A stretch of DNA of 64,000 bases from Sphingopyxis indica. GTDB lineage: Bacteria > Pseudomonadota > Alphaproteobacteria > Sphingomonadales > Sphingomonadaceae. The DNA lies in NCBI RefSeq assembly GCF_900188185.1, contig NZ_FZPA01000001.1:124001-188000 (forward strand), in the 5' to 3' direction. Shown here piece after piece: positions 48,371 through 55,505 of the stretch (within the stretch, counting starts at the first letter, position 1; the number at the start of each line of letters is the position of its first letter). The notes under the pieces were generated by a model. That model made no database searches. It worked only from the letters and a program-made list of their open reading frames with translations, and was not told the origin of the DNA. The position numbers and the translations under genes are program-made.

Positions 48371-49696
48371 ATGGTTGCCGATACCGCGCCCACCGAGCAG
48401 GCCGAACGCGACGCGCGCGCGCTTCACGACGATGGTCACCCGATTTCGCCCGCCGAGATCGCGATCGGGGTGATCATCGGGCGAACGTCCGAATTTTTCG
48501 ACTTCTTCGTCTATGCGATCGCCTCGGTGCTGGTGTTTCCGAAGCATGTCTTTCCGCAGTTCGACCCGCTGACCGGCACGCTCTGGTCGTTCGCGATCTT
48601 CGCGCTCGCCTTTTTCGCGCGTCCTGTCGGGACGGTGATCTTCACCGCGATCGACCGCGCCTATGGCCGTGGCGCCAAGCTGACGATCGCGCTGTTCCTG
48701 CTCGGCGGTTCGACCGCGGCGATCGCCTTCCTTCCCGGCTATGACTCGATCGGGCTCGGCGCCGCGGCGCTGCTCGCGCTGTTCCGCATGGGACAGGGGG
48801 TGGCGCTCGGCGGTTCGTGGGACGGGCTCGCCTCGCTGCTCGCGATCAATGCGCCAGAGGGCAGGCGCGGCTGGTATGCGATGATACCGCAGCTCGGCGC
48901 CCCGCTCGGCCTGATCGTCGCGAGCCTGCTCTTCATGTTCCTGATTTCGGCGCTGCCCGTGCAGGATTTCCTCGACTGGGGCTGGCGTTATCCCTTCTTC
49001 GTCGCGTTCGCGATCAACGTCGTCGCGCTGTTCGCGCGGCTGCGCATCGTCGTCACCCCCGAATATGAACGCTCGTTCCAGCACCGCGACCTCGAGCCCG
49101 CCCCGATGCTCGAGACGCTGCGCTCGAACTGGAAGGTGATCGCCGCGGGCGCCTTTGCGCCGCTCGCGAGCTTCGCGATGTTCCATATGGTGACGGTATT
49201 CCCGCTGTCGTGGGTGTTCCTGTTCACCGACGAGACGCCCGCGCGTTTCCTGCTGATCGAGGCGGTCGCCGCCTTCGTCGGCGTGCTCGCGATCATCGTC
49301 TCGGGCCTGCTCGCCGACCGCGTCGGACGCCGCACGATGCTGGGCGTCACCGCGGCGGCGATCGCGGCGTTCAGCGGCTTCGCGCCGCAGCTGCTGGGCG
49401 CCGGCGAGGCGGGCGAGGCGGCGTTCATGCTGCTCGGCTTTGCGCTGCTCGGCCTGTCCTTCGGCCAGTCGTCGGGGGCGCTGTCGTCGGAATTCCAGCC
49501 GCGCCACCGCTACACGGGGTCGGCCTTCACCTCGGACCTCGCCTGGCTGTTCGGCGCGGGCTTCGCGCCGCTGGTCGCGCTGTGGCTGTCGAGCGAATTC
49601 GGCCTGCTCGCCGCGGGCGCCTATCTGCTCTCGGGTGCGATCGGCACGCTGGTCGCGCTGTGGCTCAACCGCGAGCTTGCCCGCAACATCGGCTAG
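48371..49696 (+). CDS. MFS transporter, metabolite:H+ symporter-like
   Basis: A 12-helix major facilitator of about 441 residues. Motifs are IGRTSEFFDFFVYAIASVLV (typical of the MHS/ProP-like group), FARPVGTVIFTAIDRAYGR, RMGQGVALGGSWDGLASLLA and LLADRVGRRTMLG. The substrate is unknown; this group takes up organic acids or osmolytes. The frame is open from 48287. ATG 48371 is closer to the first helix and more typical. It is divergent from cyoA across the FNR-type box. Its stop codon TAG is the first triplet of a 162-bp repeat. Confidence 0.88.
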   Translation: MVADTAPTEQAERDARALHDDGHPISPAEIAIGVIIGRTSEFFDFFVYAIASVLVFPKHVFPQFDPLTGTLWSFAIFALAFFARPVGTVIFTAIDRAYGRGAKLTIALFLLGGSTAAIAFLPGYDSIGLGAAALLALFRMGQGVALGGSWDGLASLLAINAPEGRRGWYAMIPQLGAPLGLIVASLLFMFLISALPVQDFLDWGWRYPFFVAFAINVVALFARLRIVVTPEYERSFQHRDLEPAPMLETLRSNWKVIAAGAFAPLASFAMFHMVTVFPLSWVFLFTDETPARFLLIEAVAAFVGVLAIIVSGLLADRVGRRTMLGVTAAAIAAFSGFAPQLLGAGEAGEAAFMLLGFALLGLSFGQSSGALSSEFQPRHRYTGSAFTSDLAWLFGAGFAPLVALWLSSEFGLLAAGAYLLSGAIGTLVALWLNRELARNIG

Positions 49697-49855
49697 AGCA
49701 TCGTGCCGGAAATCTGCACCGTTTCCCCGAGCGAAGACGAGGGGCTCTGCCGAGCGAAGTCGAGGCGGCGACGCTGCGGTTCTCGCTCCGCTCGAACGAG
49801 CCCCTCGTCTTCGCTCGGGGATGCGGATGATTCAGATTTCGCGCAATTTGCTCTA
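49694..49855. mobile_element. 162-bp palindromic MITE-like element, copy 1
   Basis: Identical over all 162 bases to 54378-54539. It begins TAGAGCATCGTGCC and ends GCGCAATTTGCTCTA. The ends are imperfect inverted repeats (about 19 of 27 match). Inner arms CCCCGAGCGAAGACGAGG at 49725 and their complement ending at 49820 form a perfect 23-base stem (49725-49747 with 49798-49820). TA at both ends suggests TA target duplication. Removing the element with one TA restores a TAA stop for the MFS gene. It has no transposase and would need one supplied elsewhere. Confidence 0.8.
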
Positions 49856-49880
49856 AAATTTCGTGAATTGAGAAACTGCA

Positions 49881-49974
49881 TGCGCCCGCGAAGGCGGGTC
49901 CCCATCATCCGGCGGCGCTATTTCGAACCGGCAGGAGATGGGTCCCCGCCTCCGCGGGGACACACTTGATTTGC
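49881..49974. repeat. Palindromic repeat B, copy 1
   Basis: A GC-rich double-hairpin repeat. GCCCGCGAAGGCGGGTCCCC on the left and GGTCCCCGCCTCCGCGGGGA on the right are each self-complementary. CCGGCAGGAGATGGG lies in between. A related copy lies at 54588-54675. It sits between the convergent MFS and TonB receptor genes, so it may act as a bidirectional terminator. Confidence 0.65.
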
Positions 49975-49998
49975 CTGGCGCAGTTCACCTGCCACCGG

Positions 49999-52011
49999 TC
50001 ACTTCCCGAATGTCACCCCGATCCACAACGTTCGCGGGGTGCCGAGGTCGATCGAGCCGCCCTGGTTGCGCGTCATCACCCGCGTATCGGTGACATTTTC
50101 GGCGCGCAGGACGAGCCGGGCGCGCTGCGCGAGCGGGACTTCGGCATAGAGGTCGAGCGTCGTCGCGGCGTCGAGGATGTCGCTTTCGAGATCATCCTCA
50201 TATTGCGCACCGACATAGCGCAGCGTCCCCGCCAGGCTCCAGCCGGGCGCGGGCGCCAGGCTCAGCGTCGCGCTCGCGGCCCAGCGCGGCGTCTGCGCGG
50301 GCCGGTTGCCGTCGAGCGCGGCGGCGGGGCCGCTGCCTTGCGCCTCGGCATCGGTGTAGGCCGCCGATCCGCGAAAGCCGACGATCCCGCGCGCGATCCC
50401 CGCCGACAGCTCGACCCCGCGCGCATGGATCGCGTCGATATTGCGCCGCTGGCGCAGGTCGGGGCCGATGGTGACATTGGCGACGGCGTGCTTGACCTTG
50501 TTGTCGAACAAGGTCGCCGACAGGTCGATGCCCTTTGCGGGCGTAAGGTCGAGCCCGGCTTCATAGCCGACCAGCCGCTCGTTGCGCAGTTCGGCGTTGG
50601 CGAGGGTGGTGACGGGAAAGACGACGAAGGGGCGATAAAGCTCGTTGAGTGTCGGCAGCCGCAGCCCGCTATAGGCCGCGGCGCGCAGCCGCAGCGCGTC
50701 GCTCGCCTGCCACATCGCGCCGCCGCGGACCGAGCCTTGCCAGCCCGAGCGGCCGGCGAAGCGGTCGTCGGCGACGACCACGCCCGCGCCATCGCGCTCG
50801 ATAAAGAAGCCATCGGCGATGACATAGCGGTCGGCGCGCGCGCCCGCGGTCAGCGTCAGCGCGCCGAGGCTCCAGTCGTCCTCGACGAAGAGGCCGAGAT
50901 CGCTGTTGGTGCCCCCGGCGTTGCGGCGCGCGGTGACCTGGCCGGTCATCGCGCTCAGCGCATCTTCAAATAGTTCGCCATCAGAGCGGCGATAGTCGAG
51001 GCCGAGACGCAGCACATGATTGCCGCCGACCGGCGGGCGCAGTTCGAGCTTGCCACCGAGGCCGGTCGAGGGCGTATTGCGCTGGTCGAGCACCGGCGTG
51101 AAGCGGCTCGACGAGATGACGATATTCGTAAAATTGCGCGCCTGAACATAGGCGAGCGCGTCGAACTGCCAAGCGCCGCGCCCGACGAGGCGCAGGCTCG
51201 CTTCCTGTCCCTCGCTCGACGAATCGGCGCCCTCGAAGCGCAGGGTGCGGCGATCGTCGAACGCCATCGCGCGCGCCTGCAATTCGACCGTATCGGTGAG
51301 CGGGGCGACGAGGCGGATCTGCGCCGACCAGCTGTCATAGGCGGCGCGCGCGGTCGCGGGGACGCGCTGGTCGGCGGGGGTGGTATAATAGCCCTGTCCG
51401 CGGTCCCAGCGCCCCGAGACGACGGCGAAACCGGCGCCGAGCGGGGCGGCGAGCGTCGCGCTCGCCTCGCTCTCGCCGCGATCGTCGACGAGCAGCGTGC
51501 CGCTCAACGGGCCGAGTGCCTCGGCATTGGTGCTCGCAAGTTCGATCGTCCCGGCAAGCGCGCCGGCGCCGAACGGCCCCGACCCCCCGCCGCGCGTGAC
51601 CCGCACGCTCGCCAGCCGCTCGGGGGCGAGGGCGGAAAAGGGGATATAGCCGAAAAAGGGATCGGCGACCGGCACGCCGTCGAGCAGCATCGCCGCGCGG
51701 CTTGTCGCATTGCCGCCGAGCGCGCGCAAGGTGATGCCTTGCGCCGACGGGTTCGACGCGCGGCTGTCGGAACGGCGGAACTGCTGGAAGCCCGCGACCG
51801 ACGCGAGCGCATCTTCGAGCCGCCCCGAGGCGGTTGCGGTGAGCGCGTCGCGGTCGATGAGGGTGATGTCATAGGCGGGCGTCGCCGGCGTATCGGCGAG
51901 GCCGGTGCCGGTGACGATGATCGGCTGCTCCTGCGCCGGTGCCGACACCGGCAGCAGCATCAATGCGGTCAAGGGGAGGGGGGCGAGGCGGAATGCGGCG
52001 GTCACGGTCAT
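49999..52011 (-). CDS. TonB-dependent outer-membrane receptor
   Basis: A 670-residue receptor with a signal peptide ending near residue 26 (APAQEQ). A TonB-box-like IIVTGTG comes next. The plug domain (about 40-150) has RLEDALASVAGFQQFRRSDS and LRALGGNATSRAAMLLDGVP. A 22-strand barrel follows, with typical segments such as YEAGLDLTPAKGIDLSATLF and a C-terminal strand ending WIGVTFGK. The last residue is Lys rather than the usual Phe. The ligand is unknown. It lies divergent from the YdeP-like gene and convergent with the MFS gene. Confidence 0.92.
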   Translation of the reverse strand: MTVTAAFRLAPLPLTALMLLPVSAPAQEQPIIVTGTGLADTPATPAYDITLIDRDALTATASGRLEDALASVAGFQQFRRSDSRASNPSAQGITLRALGGNATSRAAMLLDGVPVADPFFGYIPFSALAPERLASVRVTRGGGSGPFGAGALAGTIELASTNAEALGPLSGTLLVDDRGESEASATLAAPLGAGFAVVSGRWDRGQGYYTTPADQRVPATARAAYDSWSAQIRLVAPLTDTVELQARAMAFDDRRTLRFEGADSSSEGQEASLRLVGRGAWQFDALAYVQARNFTNIVISSSRFTPVLDQRNTPSTGLGGKLELRPPVGGNHVLRLGLDYRRSDGELFEDALSAMTGQVTARRNAGGTNSDLGLFVEDDWSLGALTLTAGARADRYVIADGFFIERDGAGVVVADDRFAGRSGWQGSVRGGAMWQASDALRLRAAAYSGLRLPTLNELYRPFVVFPVTTLANAELRNERLVGYEAGLDLTPAKGIDLSATLFDNKVKHAVANVTIGPDLRQRRNIDAIHARGVELSAGIARGIVGFRGSAAYTDAEAQGSGPAAALDGNRPAQTPRWAASATLSLAPAPGWSLAGTLRYVGAQYEDDLESDILDAATTLDLYAEVPLAQRARLVLRAENVTDTRVMTRNQGGSIDLGTPRTLWIGVTFGK

Positions 52012-52027
52012 TGTTTCGAAAGAGCCC

Positions 52028-52057
52028 CTCCGCTTTGATGTTTCGCCGACAGCGGAG
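52028..52057. promoter_or_regulatory. 7-base inverted repeat in divergent promoter
   Basis: CTCCGCT (52028-52034) and AGCGGAG (52051-52057) form an inverted repeat in the 104-base gap between the TonB receptor and YdeP-like genes. It could be an operator or part of a leader hairpin. The regulator is unknown. Confidence 0.35.
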
Positions 52058-52115
52058 TGGATATTGCGAGCGCAAAATGCTCTAATGCCACTCCCACAAC
52101 GCCGGGACCGACGCC

Positions 52116-54380
52116 ATGGCCGACCGCAAGCTGCACTACAAGACTTATACCGCGCCTGCCGGCGGATGGGGCGCCGCCGCGGCGACCGCCAAGGTGCTGC
52201 TCGAACAGAGCGTGGTGACCAAGGGGTCGCGCGCGCTGCTCGCGATGAACCAGCCGGGCGGCTTCAAATGTTCAAGCTGCGCCTTTCCCGACGCGAGCTG
52301 CACCAAGACCTTCGAATTTTGCGAAAACGGCGCCAAGGCGCTCGCGCACGAGGCAACCAAATTCCGCGTCACGCGCGACTTCTTTGCCCGGCACAGCGTC
52401 GCCGAGCTGATGGCGCAGTCCGACTATTGGCTCGAAATGCAGGGGCGGCTCACCGAACCGATGCGCTACGACGCCGCGAGCGACCATTATGTGCCGGTGA
52501 GCTGGGACGAGGCGTTCGCGACGATCGGGCGGCATCTGCGCGGACTCGACAGTCCGCACCGTGCCGAATTCTATACCTCGGGCCGCACCCCGAACGAGGC
52601 GGCCTTCCTCTATTCGATCTTCGTCCGCGAATATGGCACCAACAATTTTCCCGATTGTTCGAACATGTGCCACGAGCCGACGAGCCGCGGGCTGCCGCCC
52701 GCGATCGGCGTCGGCAAGGGCACGGTGATCCTCGACGATTTCGACCATGCGCAGGCGATCTTCGTCATCGGCCAGAACCCCGGAACCAATTCGCCGCGGA
52801 TGATGACCTGCCTCGTCGAGGCGCGCAAACGCGGCGTGCCGATCGTCGCGGTCAACCCGATGCCCGAGCGCGCGCTGATCCGCTTCACCGAACCGCAGGA
52901 CATCGCGCAGATGGCGACCTTCGGCTCGACGCCGATCGCGAGCGAGTTCGTGCATGTGAAGATCGGCGGCGACCTCGCGCTGTTGAAGGGCATGATGCGC
53001 GTGCTGTTCGAGCGCGAGGCGGCGGGGGAGGCGGTGCTCGATCATGCCTTCATCGCCGAGCATAGCGAGGGGTTCGAGGCGCTGCGCGACGACGTCATGG
53101 CGCAGGACTGGGACGAAATCGTCGCGGTGTCGGGCATATCGGAGGAACAGATCCGCCGCTGCGCCGAAATCTATATCGCCTCGAACGCGACGATCATCTG
53201 TTACGGCATGGGTCTTACCCAGCACCAGAAGGGGTCGCAGCTGTTGCAGCAGGTCGCGAACCTGCTGCTGCTCAAGGGAAATTACGGCAAGCCCGGCGCC
53301 GGCATCTCGCCGATCCGCGGCCATTCGAACGTCCAGGGCGACCGCACCGTCGGCATCGACGAGCGGCCGAGCGAGGCTTATCTCGACCGCGTCCGCGAGG
53401 TTTTCGGCTTCGATCCGCCGCGCGCGCACGGCCATCATACGGTCGAATCGGTCGAAGCGATGCTGGCGGGCGAGGCGAAGGTCTTCATCGGCCTCGGCGG
53501 CAATTTCGTGCGCGCGGTGCCCGATACCGAGCGCGCCTATGCGGCGATGGCAAAGCTCGACCTGACCGTCGGCATCGCGACCAAGCTCAACCGCGGTCAT
53601 CTCGTTCACGGCAAGGAGGCGCTGATCCTGCCCGTGATCGCGCGATCCGAACGCATCGAGACCGCGGACGGCGAACAATTTGTGACGATCGAGGATTCGA
53701 TGTCGAACGTCACCGCCTCGCGCGGGGTGCTCGACCCGGCGAGCCCGGATCTGCTGCCCGAGGTCGAGATCGTCTGCCGCATGGCGATGGCGACGCTGCC
53801 CGAAAGCCGCGTCGACTGGGTGCGCTATATCGACGATTATGGCGCGATCCGTGACAAGATCGCCGAGGTCTATCCCGCAATCTACGAAGGTTTTTCGGAG
53901 CGGATCAAGGCGCCGCAGGGGTTCCATCTCGACATAGCGCCGCGGCGCCGCGCATGGCTGACCCCGAACGGCAAGGCGAATTTCCTCATCCTGCCCGGCC
54001 TGCACGTCGATGCGCCGGTCGACGAAGCCGATATGCTGCGGCTCGCGACCGTGCGCTCGCACGACCAGTTCAATACGACCATCTACAGCTACAACGACCG
54101 CTATCGCGGCGTCAGGGGCGGCCGGATGGTGCTGTTCGTCAACGCCGAGGACCGCGCGGCGCGCGGACTGGAGGCCGGCGCGACGGTCGCGCTCGAAACG
54201 ATCGCGAGCGACGGCATTGCGCGGCGGGTCGAGGGGTTGACCCTGATCGACTATCCGATGCCGCGCGGCGCGATCGCGGGTTACTATCCCGAACTCAACC
54301 CGCTGCTGCCGCTCGACTATTATGACCGGACGAGCGGCTGTCCGGCGGCGAAGTCGATCCCGGTGCGGATTGCGGTCTAG
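52116..54380 (+). CDS. FdhF/YdeP-family molybdopterin oxidoreductase
   Basis: A 754-residue bis-MGD enzyme-like protein related to formate dehydrogenase alpha subunits and E. coli YdeP. The N-terminal Cys pattern is Cys52, Cys55, Cys62 and Cys69 (KCSSCAFPDASC then FEFCE), not the classical CxxCx3C iron-sulfur motif. Cofactor-binding blocks include NNFPDCSNMCHEPTSRGL, VIGQNPGTNSPRMM, NPMPERALIRF and GGNFVRAVPDTE. A C-terminal MopB-binding domain starts at about 640. No Tat signal is seen, so it is probably cytoplasmic. The convergent fdhD gene, which sulfurates the cofactor of such enzymes, supports the assignment. The substrate is unknown. Confidence 0.9.
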   Translation: MADRKLHYKTYTAPAGGWGAAAATAKVLLEQSVVTKGSRALLAMNQPGGFKCSSCAFPDASCTKTFEFCENGAKALAHEATKFRVTRDFFARHSVAELMAQSDYWLEMQGRLTEPMRYDAASDHYVPVSWDEAFATIGRHLRGLDSPHRAEFYTSGRTPNEAAFLYSIFVREYGTNNFPDCSNMCHEPTSRGLPPAIGVGKGTVILDDFDHAQAIFVIGQNPGTNSPRMMTCLVEARKRGVPIVAVNPMPERALIRFTEPQDIAQMATFGSTPIASEFVHVKIGGDLALLKGMMRVLFEREAAGEAVLDHAFIAEHSEGFEALRDDVMAQDWDEIVAVSGISEEQIRRCAEIYIASNATIICYGMGLTQHQKGSQLLQQVANLLLLKGNYGKPGAGISPIRGHSNVQGDRTVGIDERPSEAYLDRVREVFGFDPPRAHGHHTVESVEAMLAGEAKVFIGLGGNFVRAVPDTERAYAAMAKLDLTVGIATKLNRGHLVHGKEALILPVIARSERIETADGEQFVTIEDSMSNVTASRGVLDPASPDLLPEVEIVCRMAMATLPESRVDWVRYIDDYGAIRDKIAEVYPAIYEGFSERIKAPQGFHLDIAPRRRAWLTPNGKANFLILPGLHVDAPVDEADMLRLATVRSHDQFNTTIYSYNDRYRGVRGGRMVLFVNAEDRAARGLEAGATVALETIASDGIARRVEGLTLIDYPMPRGAIAGYYPELNPLLPLDYYDRTSGCPAAKSIPVRIAV

Positions 54381-54539
54381 AGCATCGTGCCGGAAATCTG
54401 CACCGTTTCCCCGAGCGAAGACGAGGGGCTCTGCCGAGCGAAGTCGAGGCGGCGACGCTGCGGTTCTCGCTCCGCTCGAACGAGCCCCTCGTCTTCGCTC
54501 GGGGATGCGGATGATTCAGATTTCGCGCAATTTGCTCTA
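54378..54539. mobile_element. 162-bp palindromic MITE-like element, copy 2
   Basis: Identical to the element at 49694-49855, with the same TA ends and internal 23-base stem (here 54409-54431 with 54482-54504). Its first triplet TAG is the stop codon of the YdeP-like gene. Excising it with one TA restores a TAG stop followed by AGTTTG. It lies between convergent genes, as copy 1 does. Confidence 0.8.
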
Positions 54540-54587
54540 GAGTTTGTTCCGTTCGATTTCACCTGAAGAGGACGGACTTCAGAGTTG

Positions 54588-54675
54588 GTGTGTCCCCGCG
54601 TAGGCGGGGACCCATCTCCGGCCGGTTCAAGATAGAGCCGGCAGGAGATGGGCTCCCGCCTTCGCGGGAGCACAC
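54588..54675. repeat. Palindromic repeat B, copy 2
   Basis: GTGTGTCCCCGCGTAGGCGG on the left and CTCCCGCCTTCGCGGGAGCA on the right each form a hairpin. The arms CCCATCTCC and GGAGATGGG also pair across the element, with CCGGCAGGAGATGGG shared with copy 1. It lies 48 bases after the 162-bp element, between the YdeP-like and fdhD genes. Confidence 0.7.
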
Positions 54676-54701
54676 GCGCTTCAATGAAATATGATCGGGC
54701 G

Positions 54702-55505
54702 CTAAAGATCCGGCTCGCCGCAGATCAGCAGCGCCGAGTCGGCGCGGGCGAGCGCGAGTAAGGTCAGGCCTGCCGCCGCGGCGCGCTCGGCGGCAAGGCT
54801 GGTCGGCGCCGAAATGGTGACGAGCATTGGACAGCCGGCGCGCACCGTCTTTTCGACGAGTTCGTAGCTGCACCGCGCCGAAAGCAGGATGAAACCGCTC
54901 GCGGCATCGACGCCGCCGCGCGCGAGCGCGCCGAGCAGCTTGTCGAGCGCATTGTGGCGCCCGACATCCTCGCGCACGCAGCGAATGTCGCCCGCGGCCG
55001 AACAGAAGGCGGCGGCGTGTGCCGCGCCGGTCGCGCGCCCGAGCGGCTGATGATCGGCCAGCGCGGCGAGTGCCTTCGCGACCGCGTGGCGGTCGGTTTC
55101 GAGGCGCGCCGTGATGCGCGGCAGCGGGCGCAGCACCTCCTCGATATTTTCGAGACCGCAAAGGCCGCAGCTGCTCTCGCCGACCCGGCGGCGCGCGCGG
55201 TCGAGCGCGCGGCGGCTTTGTTCGGGCGCCAGCCACAGGCGGAGCGCGATCCCGCCTTCGAGCGGCTGAACATCGACGCGTTCGATCTCGGCGGCGCGCT
55301 CGACCAGCCCTTCGGAGAGGGCGAAGCCGACCGCATAATCTTCGAGGTCGGCGGGGGTCGCCATCATCACCGCATAGCCGATACCGCCGACCTCGACCGA
55401 AATCGGCATTTCGACCGGCACCTCGCGGACGAGAACGGCATCCGAGAGGTCGCCGAAGCCGATTTGCCGCACCGGTAGCGGCGCCGAGGCGTGCATATCG
55501 GTCAC
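54702..55505 (-). CDS. fdhD: Formate dehydrogenase accessory sulfurtransferase
   Basis: It transfers sulfur to the Mo-bisMGD cofactor of formate-dehydrogenase-type enzymes. The 267-residue protein has the CxxC pair Cys113/Cys116 in SSCGLCGLENIE, the AAFCSAAGDIRCVREDVGRH block and NALDKLLGAL, then SARCSYELVEKTVRAGCPML. All are conserved in FdhD. The GTG start at 55505 overlaps the upstream MaoC-like stop by 4 bases; ATG 55496 is an alternative. It is convergent with the YdeP-like gene, its likely client. Confidence 0.94.
   Translation of the reverse strand: MTDMHASAPLPVRQIGFGDLSDAVLVREVPVEMPISVEVGGIGYAVMMATPADLEDYAVGFALSEGLVERAAEIERVDVQPLEGGIALRLWLAPEQSRRALDRARRRVGESSCGLCGLENIEEVLRPLPRITARLETDRHAVAKALAALADHQPLGRATGAAHAAAFCSAAGDIRCVREDVGRHNALDKLLGALARGGVDAASGFILLSARCSYELVEKTVRAGCPMLVTISAPTSLAAERAAAAGLTLLALARADSALLICGEPDL

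Follow-up and report, generated by a model that had tools for sequence, protein, structure and literature searches.

Two identical miniature elements, probably of IS630/Tc1 type and inserted at YTAR sites, supply the stop codons of neighbouring genes in Sphingopyxis indica

The window analysed here is a stretch of 64,000 nucleotides from Sphingopyxis indica (GCF_900188185.1, NZ_FZPA01000001.1, positions 124,001-188,000, forward strand). It carries two copies of a palindromic element that show no differences across 162 bp in a pairwise comparison (162/162 bp), start with TAGAGCA and finish with TGCTCTA. Each copy lies between convergent genes and supplies, with its first three bases, the TAG stop codon of the gene upstream. 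The original prediction had described this arrangement correctly and had seen in it a safe-site strategy of a non-autonomous, TA-duplicating, IS630/Tc1-like transposon, that is, of a miniature inverted-repeat transposable element (MITE). The features concerned are the following (window coordinates, strand).

48371-49696, plus strand: MFS (metabolite/H+ symporter-like) gene; its stop codon is the TAG of copy 1
49694-49855, plus strand: MITE copy 1, 162 bp from TA to TA; bases 1-3 form the TAG that ends the MFS gene
49694-49716, plus strand: left terminal repeat of copy 1, TAGAGCATCGTGCCGGAAATCTG
49725-49820, plus strand: inner palindromic core of copy 1, with a 23-bp stem (49725-49747 pairing with 49798-49820)
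49833-49855, minus strand: right terminal repeat of copy 1, TAGAGCAAATTGCGCGAAATCTG read on the minus strand
49999-52011, minus strand: TonB-dependent receptor gene, convergent neighbour of copy 1
52116-54380, plus strand: FdhF/YdeP-family oxidoreductase gene; its stop codon is the TAG of copy 2
54378-54539, plus strand: MITE copy 2, same sequence as copy 1; bases 1-3 form the TAG that ends the YdeP-like gene
54378-54400, plus strand: left terminal repeat of copy 2
54517-54539, minus strand: right terminal repeat of copy 2
54702-55505, minus strand: FdhD gene on the far side of copy 2, convergent with the YdeP-like gene; its TAG stop is formed by the end of an adjoining repeat from a different family

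The 23-bp ends of the element, TAGAGCATCGTGCCGGAAATCTG and TAGAGCAAATTGCGCGAAATCTG, are imperfect inverted repeats, the right repeat of copy 1 being equal to the left one at the outer 7 bases and in the AAATCTG block. According to fold computation the whole element folds end to end into a strong hairpin (-111 kcal/mol). Most of the palindromic core is also found alone, without these outer ends, at other sites in the genome. The element contains one GANTC site and no notable coding capacity; read on in the frame of the upstream gene, it offers no stop other than the terminal TAG, hence without this TAG translation would continue through the element. It thus combines the properties of a MITE: short length, no coding capacity, terminal inverted repeats and many dispersed copies with similar ends. 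An Rfam scan of the window gave 0 matches. The stem had been thought able to terminate transcription, which was not borne out: a stem-plus-T-tract scan, which allows short loops only, gave 4 hits in 49600-54760 and none inside the elements.

The right flanks of copies 1 and 2 are A and G. Removal of one TA plus the element therefore leaves TAA in the first case and TAG in the second, as had been proposed, and the predicted empty-site sequences of the two copies are GGCTAAAAT and GTCTAGAGT. The MFS orthologues of 29/29 relatives terminate at the aligned residue, several of them with TAA. As for the YdeP orthologues, 1/29 has the same length as the window protein and 28/29 are longer by 1 to 12 residues. 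The claim that the insertions left the proteins unchanged hence stands for the MFS protein and is weakened for the YdeP-like protein, which may have lost a few residues at copy 2.

In the genome to which the window belongs (4.15 Mb, 37 contigs), BLAST returned 76 matches to the element, both strands being counted. Paired copies, which include 272-bp elements with perfect repeats, are accompanied by core-only and partial copies. Besides 162 bp, MITE lengths of 139, 163, 187, 210 and 272 bp were found. In four copies (L090, L095, L100 and L101) a different short repeat (GCCAAAGGCCGAAGTTCATCC...) interrupts the sequence at about position 120, which gives the 187- and 210-bp variants. The end pattern TAGAGC-N11-AATCTG was searched, with a reversed-pattern control, in 80 genomes of the genus: it was matched in 79/80 genomes and the control in 0. 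The window's genome alone has 42 matches (control, 0), 2/42 being probably tRNA genes. Two near-universal matches, TAGAGCAYCAGACTACGAATCTG and TAGAGCATCAGATTCCTAATCTG, were left out of the analysis, being probably tRNA genes to judge by their universality and by comparison with tRNA sequence. Among 84,980 species genomes, from which the own and near genomes were possibly left out, 63 stretches matched the exact end pattern, close to the number expected by chance and scattered over unrelated phyla, which shows that the exact end is not widespread. Some candidates were rejected as elements: a 3.8-kb "autonomous element" (C19:134782-138572) has one end inside a tRNA gene, and several isolated TTAGAGCA sites proved to be tRNA genes or to lack a partner.

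For the relatives, 60 regions were fetched from among the matches listed; a pair of ends was found in 51, and 9/60 loci had none. After exclusion of 10/51 pairs with poor ends or odd length, 41 pairs from eight genomes remained and, together with 20 own copies, gave 61 MITEs. Genes were called with a simple codon model trained on the window. The site tests were made with 51 MITEs, after 3 copies at contig edges and 7 that fell within a called gene once excised had been set aside. One 162-bp copy (C31:330287-330448) has TG...CA instead of TA...TA, both of its CTAG-like ends being altered as mirror images; it was excluded from all counts, and our guess is that CTAG-specific mutation pressure lies behind it.

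In the window's genome 10/20 analysed paired copies provide a flanking gene with its stop codon through their terminal TAG, L092 and L107 doing so at both ends. In the full sample, at least one end is a stop codon in 26/61 MITEs. Altogether 30 ends coincide exactly with a stop (distance 0); every other end-to-stop distance within -150 to +20 occurs at most twice. Since half of the own copies and 30 ends in 61 MITEs lie exactly on stops, the coincidence is not due to chance.

Excision leaves YTAR (Y, pyrimidine; R, purine) at 49/51 intergenic copies (19 CTAG, 19 CTAA/TTAG and 11 TTAA). In a 300-kb sample of the window's genome the corresponding figure is 185/1054 for TAs that are non-coding or in stops. 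Called genes contain few YTAR (71, vs 917 RTAR), hence stop codons represent a large share of the usable sites. The pre-insertion state was evaluated at another copy, L092, whose flanks were joined on one TA and matched to the loci of 29 relatives (30 fetched minus the own one). The junction is a YTAR with a single TA in 27/29 of them and the alignment there is ungapped in 21/29; L445 and L453 equal the predicted pre-insertion sequence of L092 across 21 bases. In the relatives' L092 loci the same four bases terminate both convergent genes. Such shared stops received four MITEs (L092, L107, L365 and L369) and one insertion sequence (IS) copy (L419). These copies confirm the proposal that the G after TA rebuilds the amber stop: xxY-TAR becomes xxY-TAG followed by the element, and likewise at the other end for the convergent gene. 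The stop is kept at the same codon because the element's own first base after TA is G. As regards gene orientation, the 51 sites comprise 32 convergent, 18 co-directional and 1 divergent, whereas 462 background YTARs comprise 90, 227 and 145, respectively.

A single DDE_3 (IS630-type) gene is present in this genome. It sits in a 1053-bp IS (C14:112755-113807) with ends TAGAGCGTCGTGCGTTTAATCTG and TAGAGCGTCGCGTTATTAATCTG, which shares the end pattern TAGAGC-N11-AATCTG with the MITE; 18/23 bases of its end, counted by eye, equal those of TAGAGCATCGTGCCGGAAATCTG. The transposase matches the NCBIfam model NF033545 (transpos_IS630) with 144.7 bits, the cut-off being 100. Two open frames of the IS match the model, the second below the cut-off.

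L271:1991-2398, minus strand: IS630 transposase, first frame, with an A-rich run near its end
L271:1414-1944, minus strand: IS630 transposase, second frame

This two-frame layout with an A-rich run resembles that of elements using frameshifting or slippage. Adjoining the IS630 copy is another insertion sequence (L271:214-1223), which has inverted ends of 30 bp and carries an integrase-like gene.

Related transposases were sought in the 80 genomes and the ends examined at thirteen loci, which gave nine full-length elements of 1041-1056 bp with clear ends. All nine are at YTAR sites, 5/9 of them at stop codons and one at both ends. The flanks YTA...TAR of these nine autonomous copies and the empty site of L092 together indicate a TA target with TA duplication. 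Among the IS630 loci examined, only three copies of G066 and this genome's own IS have ends close to those of the MITE. A related transposase (E < 1e-50) was found in 5/7 end-rich genomes (7 or more matches) vs 5/73 others. The domain PF13340 (DUF4096), which marks the IS427-type group, had no match in this genome, and an IS5-family/IS427-type MITE is thus not indicated.

These data make it very probable that the window elements are copies of an IS630/Tc1-type MITE which entered YTAR targets, had the stop rebuilt and was probably moved by the IS at C14:112755-113807. An IS630-family transposase, most likely that of this IS, would act on the 23-bp ends and insert the MITE at the TA within YTAR, with duplication of the TA. 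As YTAR is scarce in genes, stops of the form Y-TA(A/G) make up a large part of the sites open to insertion. Hardly any insertion lies between promoters, probably through counter-selection, and copies accumulate between convergent genes; the convergent bias would thus be due to selection and not to targeting. Insertion would turn xxY-TAR into xxY-TAG by means of the element's G, the gene retaining its stop at the same codon. Stop codons as such would not be recognised.

Whether stops are favoured beyond YTAR was evaluated against several backgrounds. Among the 462 non-coding YTARs in 687 kb of unselected sequence, 73 belong to stop codons, compared with 22/51 for the MITEs (odds ratio 4.0); with divergent regions excluded the figures are 22/50 vs 73/317 (p = 0.002). 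A stricter background, with the nine IS copies added to the MITEs, gave 27/60 vs 68/382 (odds ratio 3.8, p = 9e-6), and 27/59 vs 68/248 without divergent regions (p = 0.006). Shared stops account for four of 51 MITEs vs 5/462 background YTARs. In convergent regions only, the excess is again clear (19/32 vs 23/90, p = 0.0007). All these results, and the position of 5/9 autonomous IS630 copies at stops, would be expected if the family aimed at stops or gene 3' ends, more than YTAR being recognised by the transposase or by something that it follows, for instance convergent transcription. However, the convergent excess falls to 19/32 vs 19/42 (p = 0.17) once repeat-bearing regions are removed from the background, co-directional regions show no excess of stops (3/18 vs 49/206), and the relatives alone, compared with non-divergent sites, give 12/31 vs 10/35 (p = 0.27). 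Nor are stop YTARs favoured over other YTARs of the same region (22 observed, 22.45 expected), although this test is weak: it conditions on the chosen region, and its 12 informative regions give 5 observed vs 5.45 expected. The IS630 copies show no excess over L403-L455 (5/9 vs 40/71, p = 0.66), a biased background that comes mostly from one anchored locus and was not used as a control. A preference for stops beyond YTAR hence depends on the background chosen and is not established. We consider aiming at stops unlikely, and equally so the wider view that stops are the main landing pad of this IS630/MITE lineage, gene ends or convergent junctions being truly recognised beyond YTAR and the fixed G kept for rebuilding the host stop. 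In our reading, YTAR targeting and selection against insertions into promoters and genes account for most of the pattern, to which some extra preference may be added. The safe-site strategy is accordingly upheld as to the sites (YTAR at 49/51, convergent 32/51, divergent 1/51) and not as to a preference for stops as such.

Several observations weigh against the reading favoured here, of a MITE moved to YTAR by the genome's own IS630 without recognition of stops. Stops remain in excess when all non-coding YTARs serve as background. The genome has just one IS630 copy of its own, split over two reading frames, and one MITE copy has TG...CA ends, not TA...TA. The IS copies in G002, G009, G022 and G055 agree with the MITE only at the outer TAGAG(C), and the end-rich genomes G061 and G063 have no close relative of the transposase; for these two reasons the partnership of IS and MITE is not proven. 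The pre-insertion state of copy 2 cannot be reconstructed, its right flank being another repeat, which makes its history less certain than that of copy 1.

Retention of the copies for a function at gene ends, for example as bidirectional transcription barriers or RNA stabilisers, would agree with the strength of the hairpin and with the 32/51 copies between convergent genes. Yet neither element has a T-tract terminator inside, selection against other positions gives the same distribution, and the copies are species-restricted and shift position between relatives, as expected for a mobile element; we regard such a function as improbable. It is more improbable still, to the point of being hardly credible, that the coincidence with stops is an annotation effect, the genes having been truncated by insertions that brought an in-frame TAG. 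The longer YdeP proteins of 28/29 relatives could be read in this way, but the MFS orthologues stop at the same residue in 29/29 and an in-frame triplet TAR at a YTAR site is already a stop. Moreover, the DUF481-like protein at L092 has a normal outer-membrane C-terminus, and its relatives stop in the same place.

The repeat next to copy 2 belongs to a second family, with ends TAGAGCnnGATCnnnTTTnAnTGAA and 41 matches listed in the window's genome (G000). Its copy in the window (54538-54704, left boundary inferred) lies directly 3' of MITE copy 2 and provides, at the opposite end, the TAG with which FdhD stops. In this family 12/30 examined ends are stop codons (11 flagged computationally, L205 by eye). 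Two 1050-bp IS630 elements of genome G055 (L404 and L419) have perfect 25-bp ends, TAGAGCGTGATCGTCTTAGATTGAA, close to those of the second family; judging by these ends, this IS and the second family could form a separate IS-MITE pair. Elements stacked end to end with one common terminal TA were seen at L101 (C28:130835), at L103 (C31:191555) and at window position 54538. Such stacking is expected if every insertion recreates YTAR at the element ends.

IS630 of Shigella sonnei and ISY100 share with the present system a DDE_3/IS630-type transposase, a TA target and TA duplication. An IS630-associated transposon reportedly transposes preferentially to the TA of CTAG. The system described here differs in that the target is YTAR, with CTAG in just 19/51, and in that insertion at a stop codon with a rebuilt stop is a regular outcome. 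Insertion into TA with duplication is described in the ISY100 paper. RUP, the MITE linked to IS630-Spn1 in Streptococcus pneumoniae, is likewise short and non-coding, with IS630-family-like ends and a TA-holding target; sequence and host are different, and the portion of the RUP account available does not mention insertion at stop codons. The CIR repeats of the alphaproteobacteria Caulobacter and Brucella are intergenic with TA termini and GANTC sites; according to their description each consists of two separate hairpins and lacks terminal inverted repeats. Compared by description, the window element is distinct from them: it has terminal inverted repeats, folds end to end and contains one GANTC. 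MITEPsy1 of Pseudomonas syringae, a 100-nt MITE, has a similar target (CTAG or YTAA), but the accessible part of its description gives a four-base duplication and an IS5-like origin and describes no stop-codon pattern. No description of stop codons as a regular site of IS630 elements or their MITEs was found in the literature searched, which mostly lacked subscription papers.

Together, a simple four-base target rule and one fixed terminal base would allow this transposon to do almost no harm to a GC-rich genome. Of the sites where it is tolerated, stop codons are the commonest, and as both ends of the element carry a replacement stop, it can even split a stop that two convergent genes have in common and leave both proteins as they were. 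The IS-MITE pair found here can be tested experimentally. For annotation, these results serve as a warning that many TAG stops in such genomes are transposon ends.

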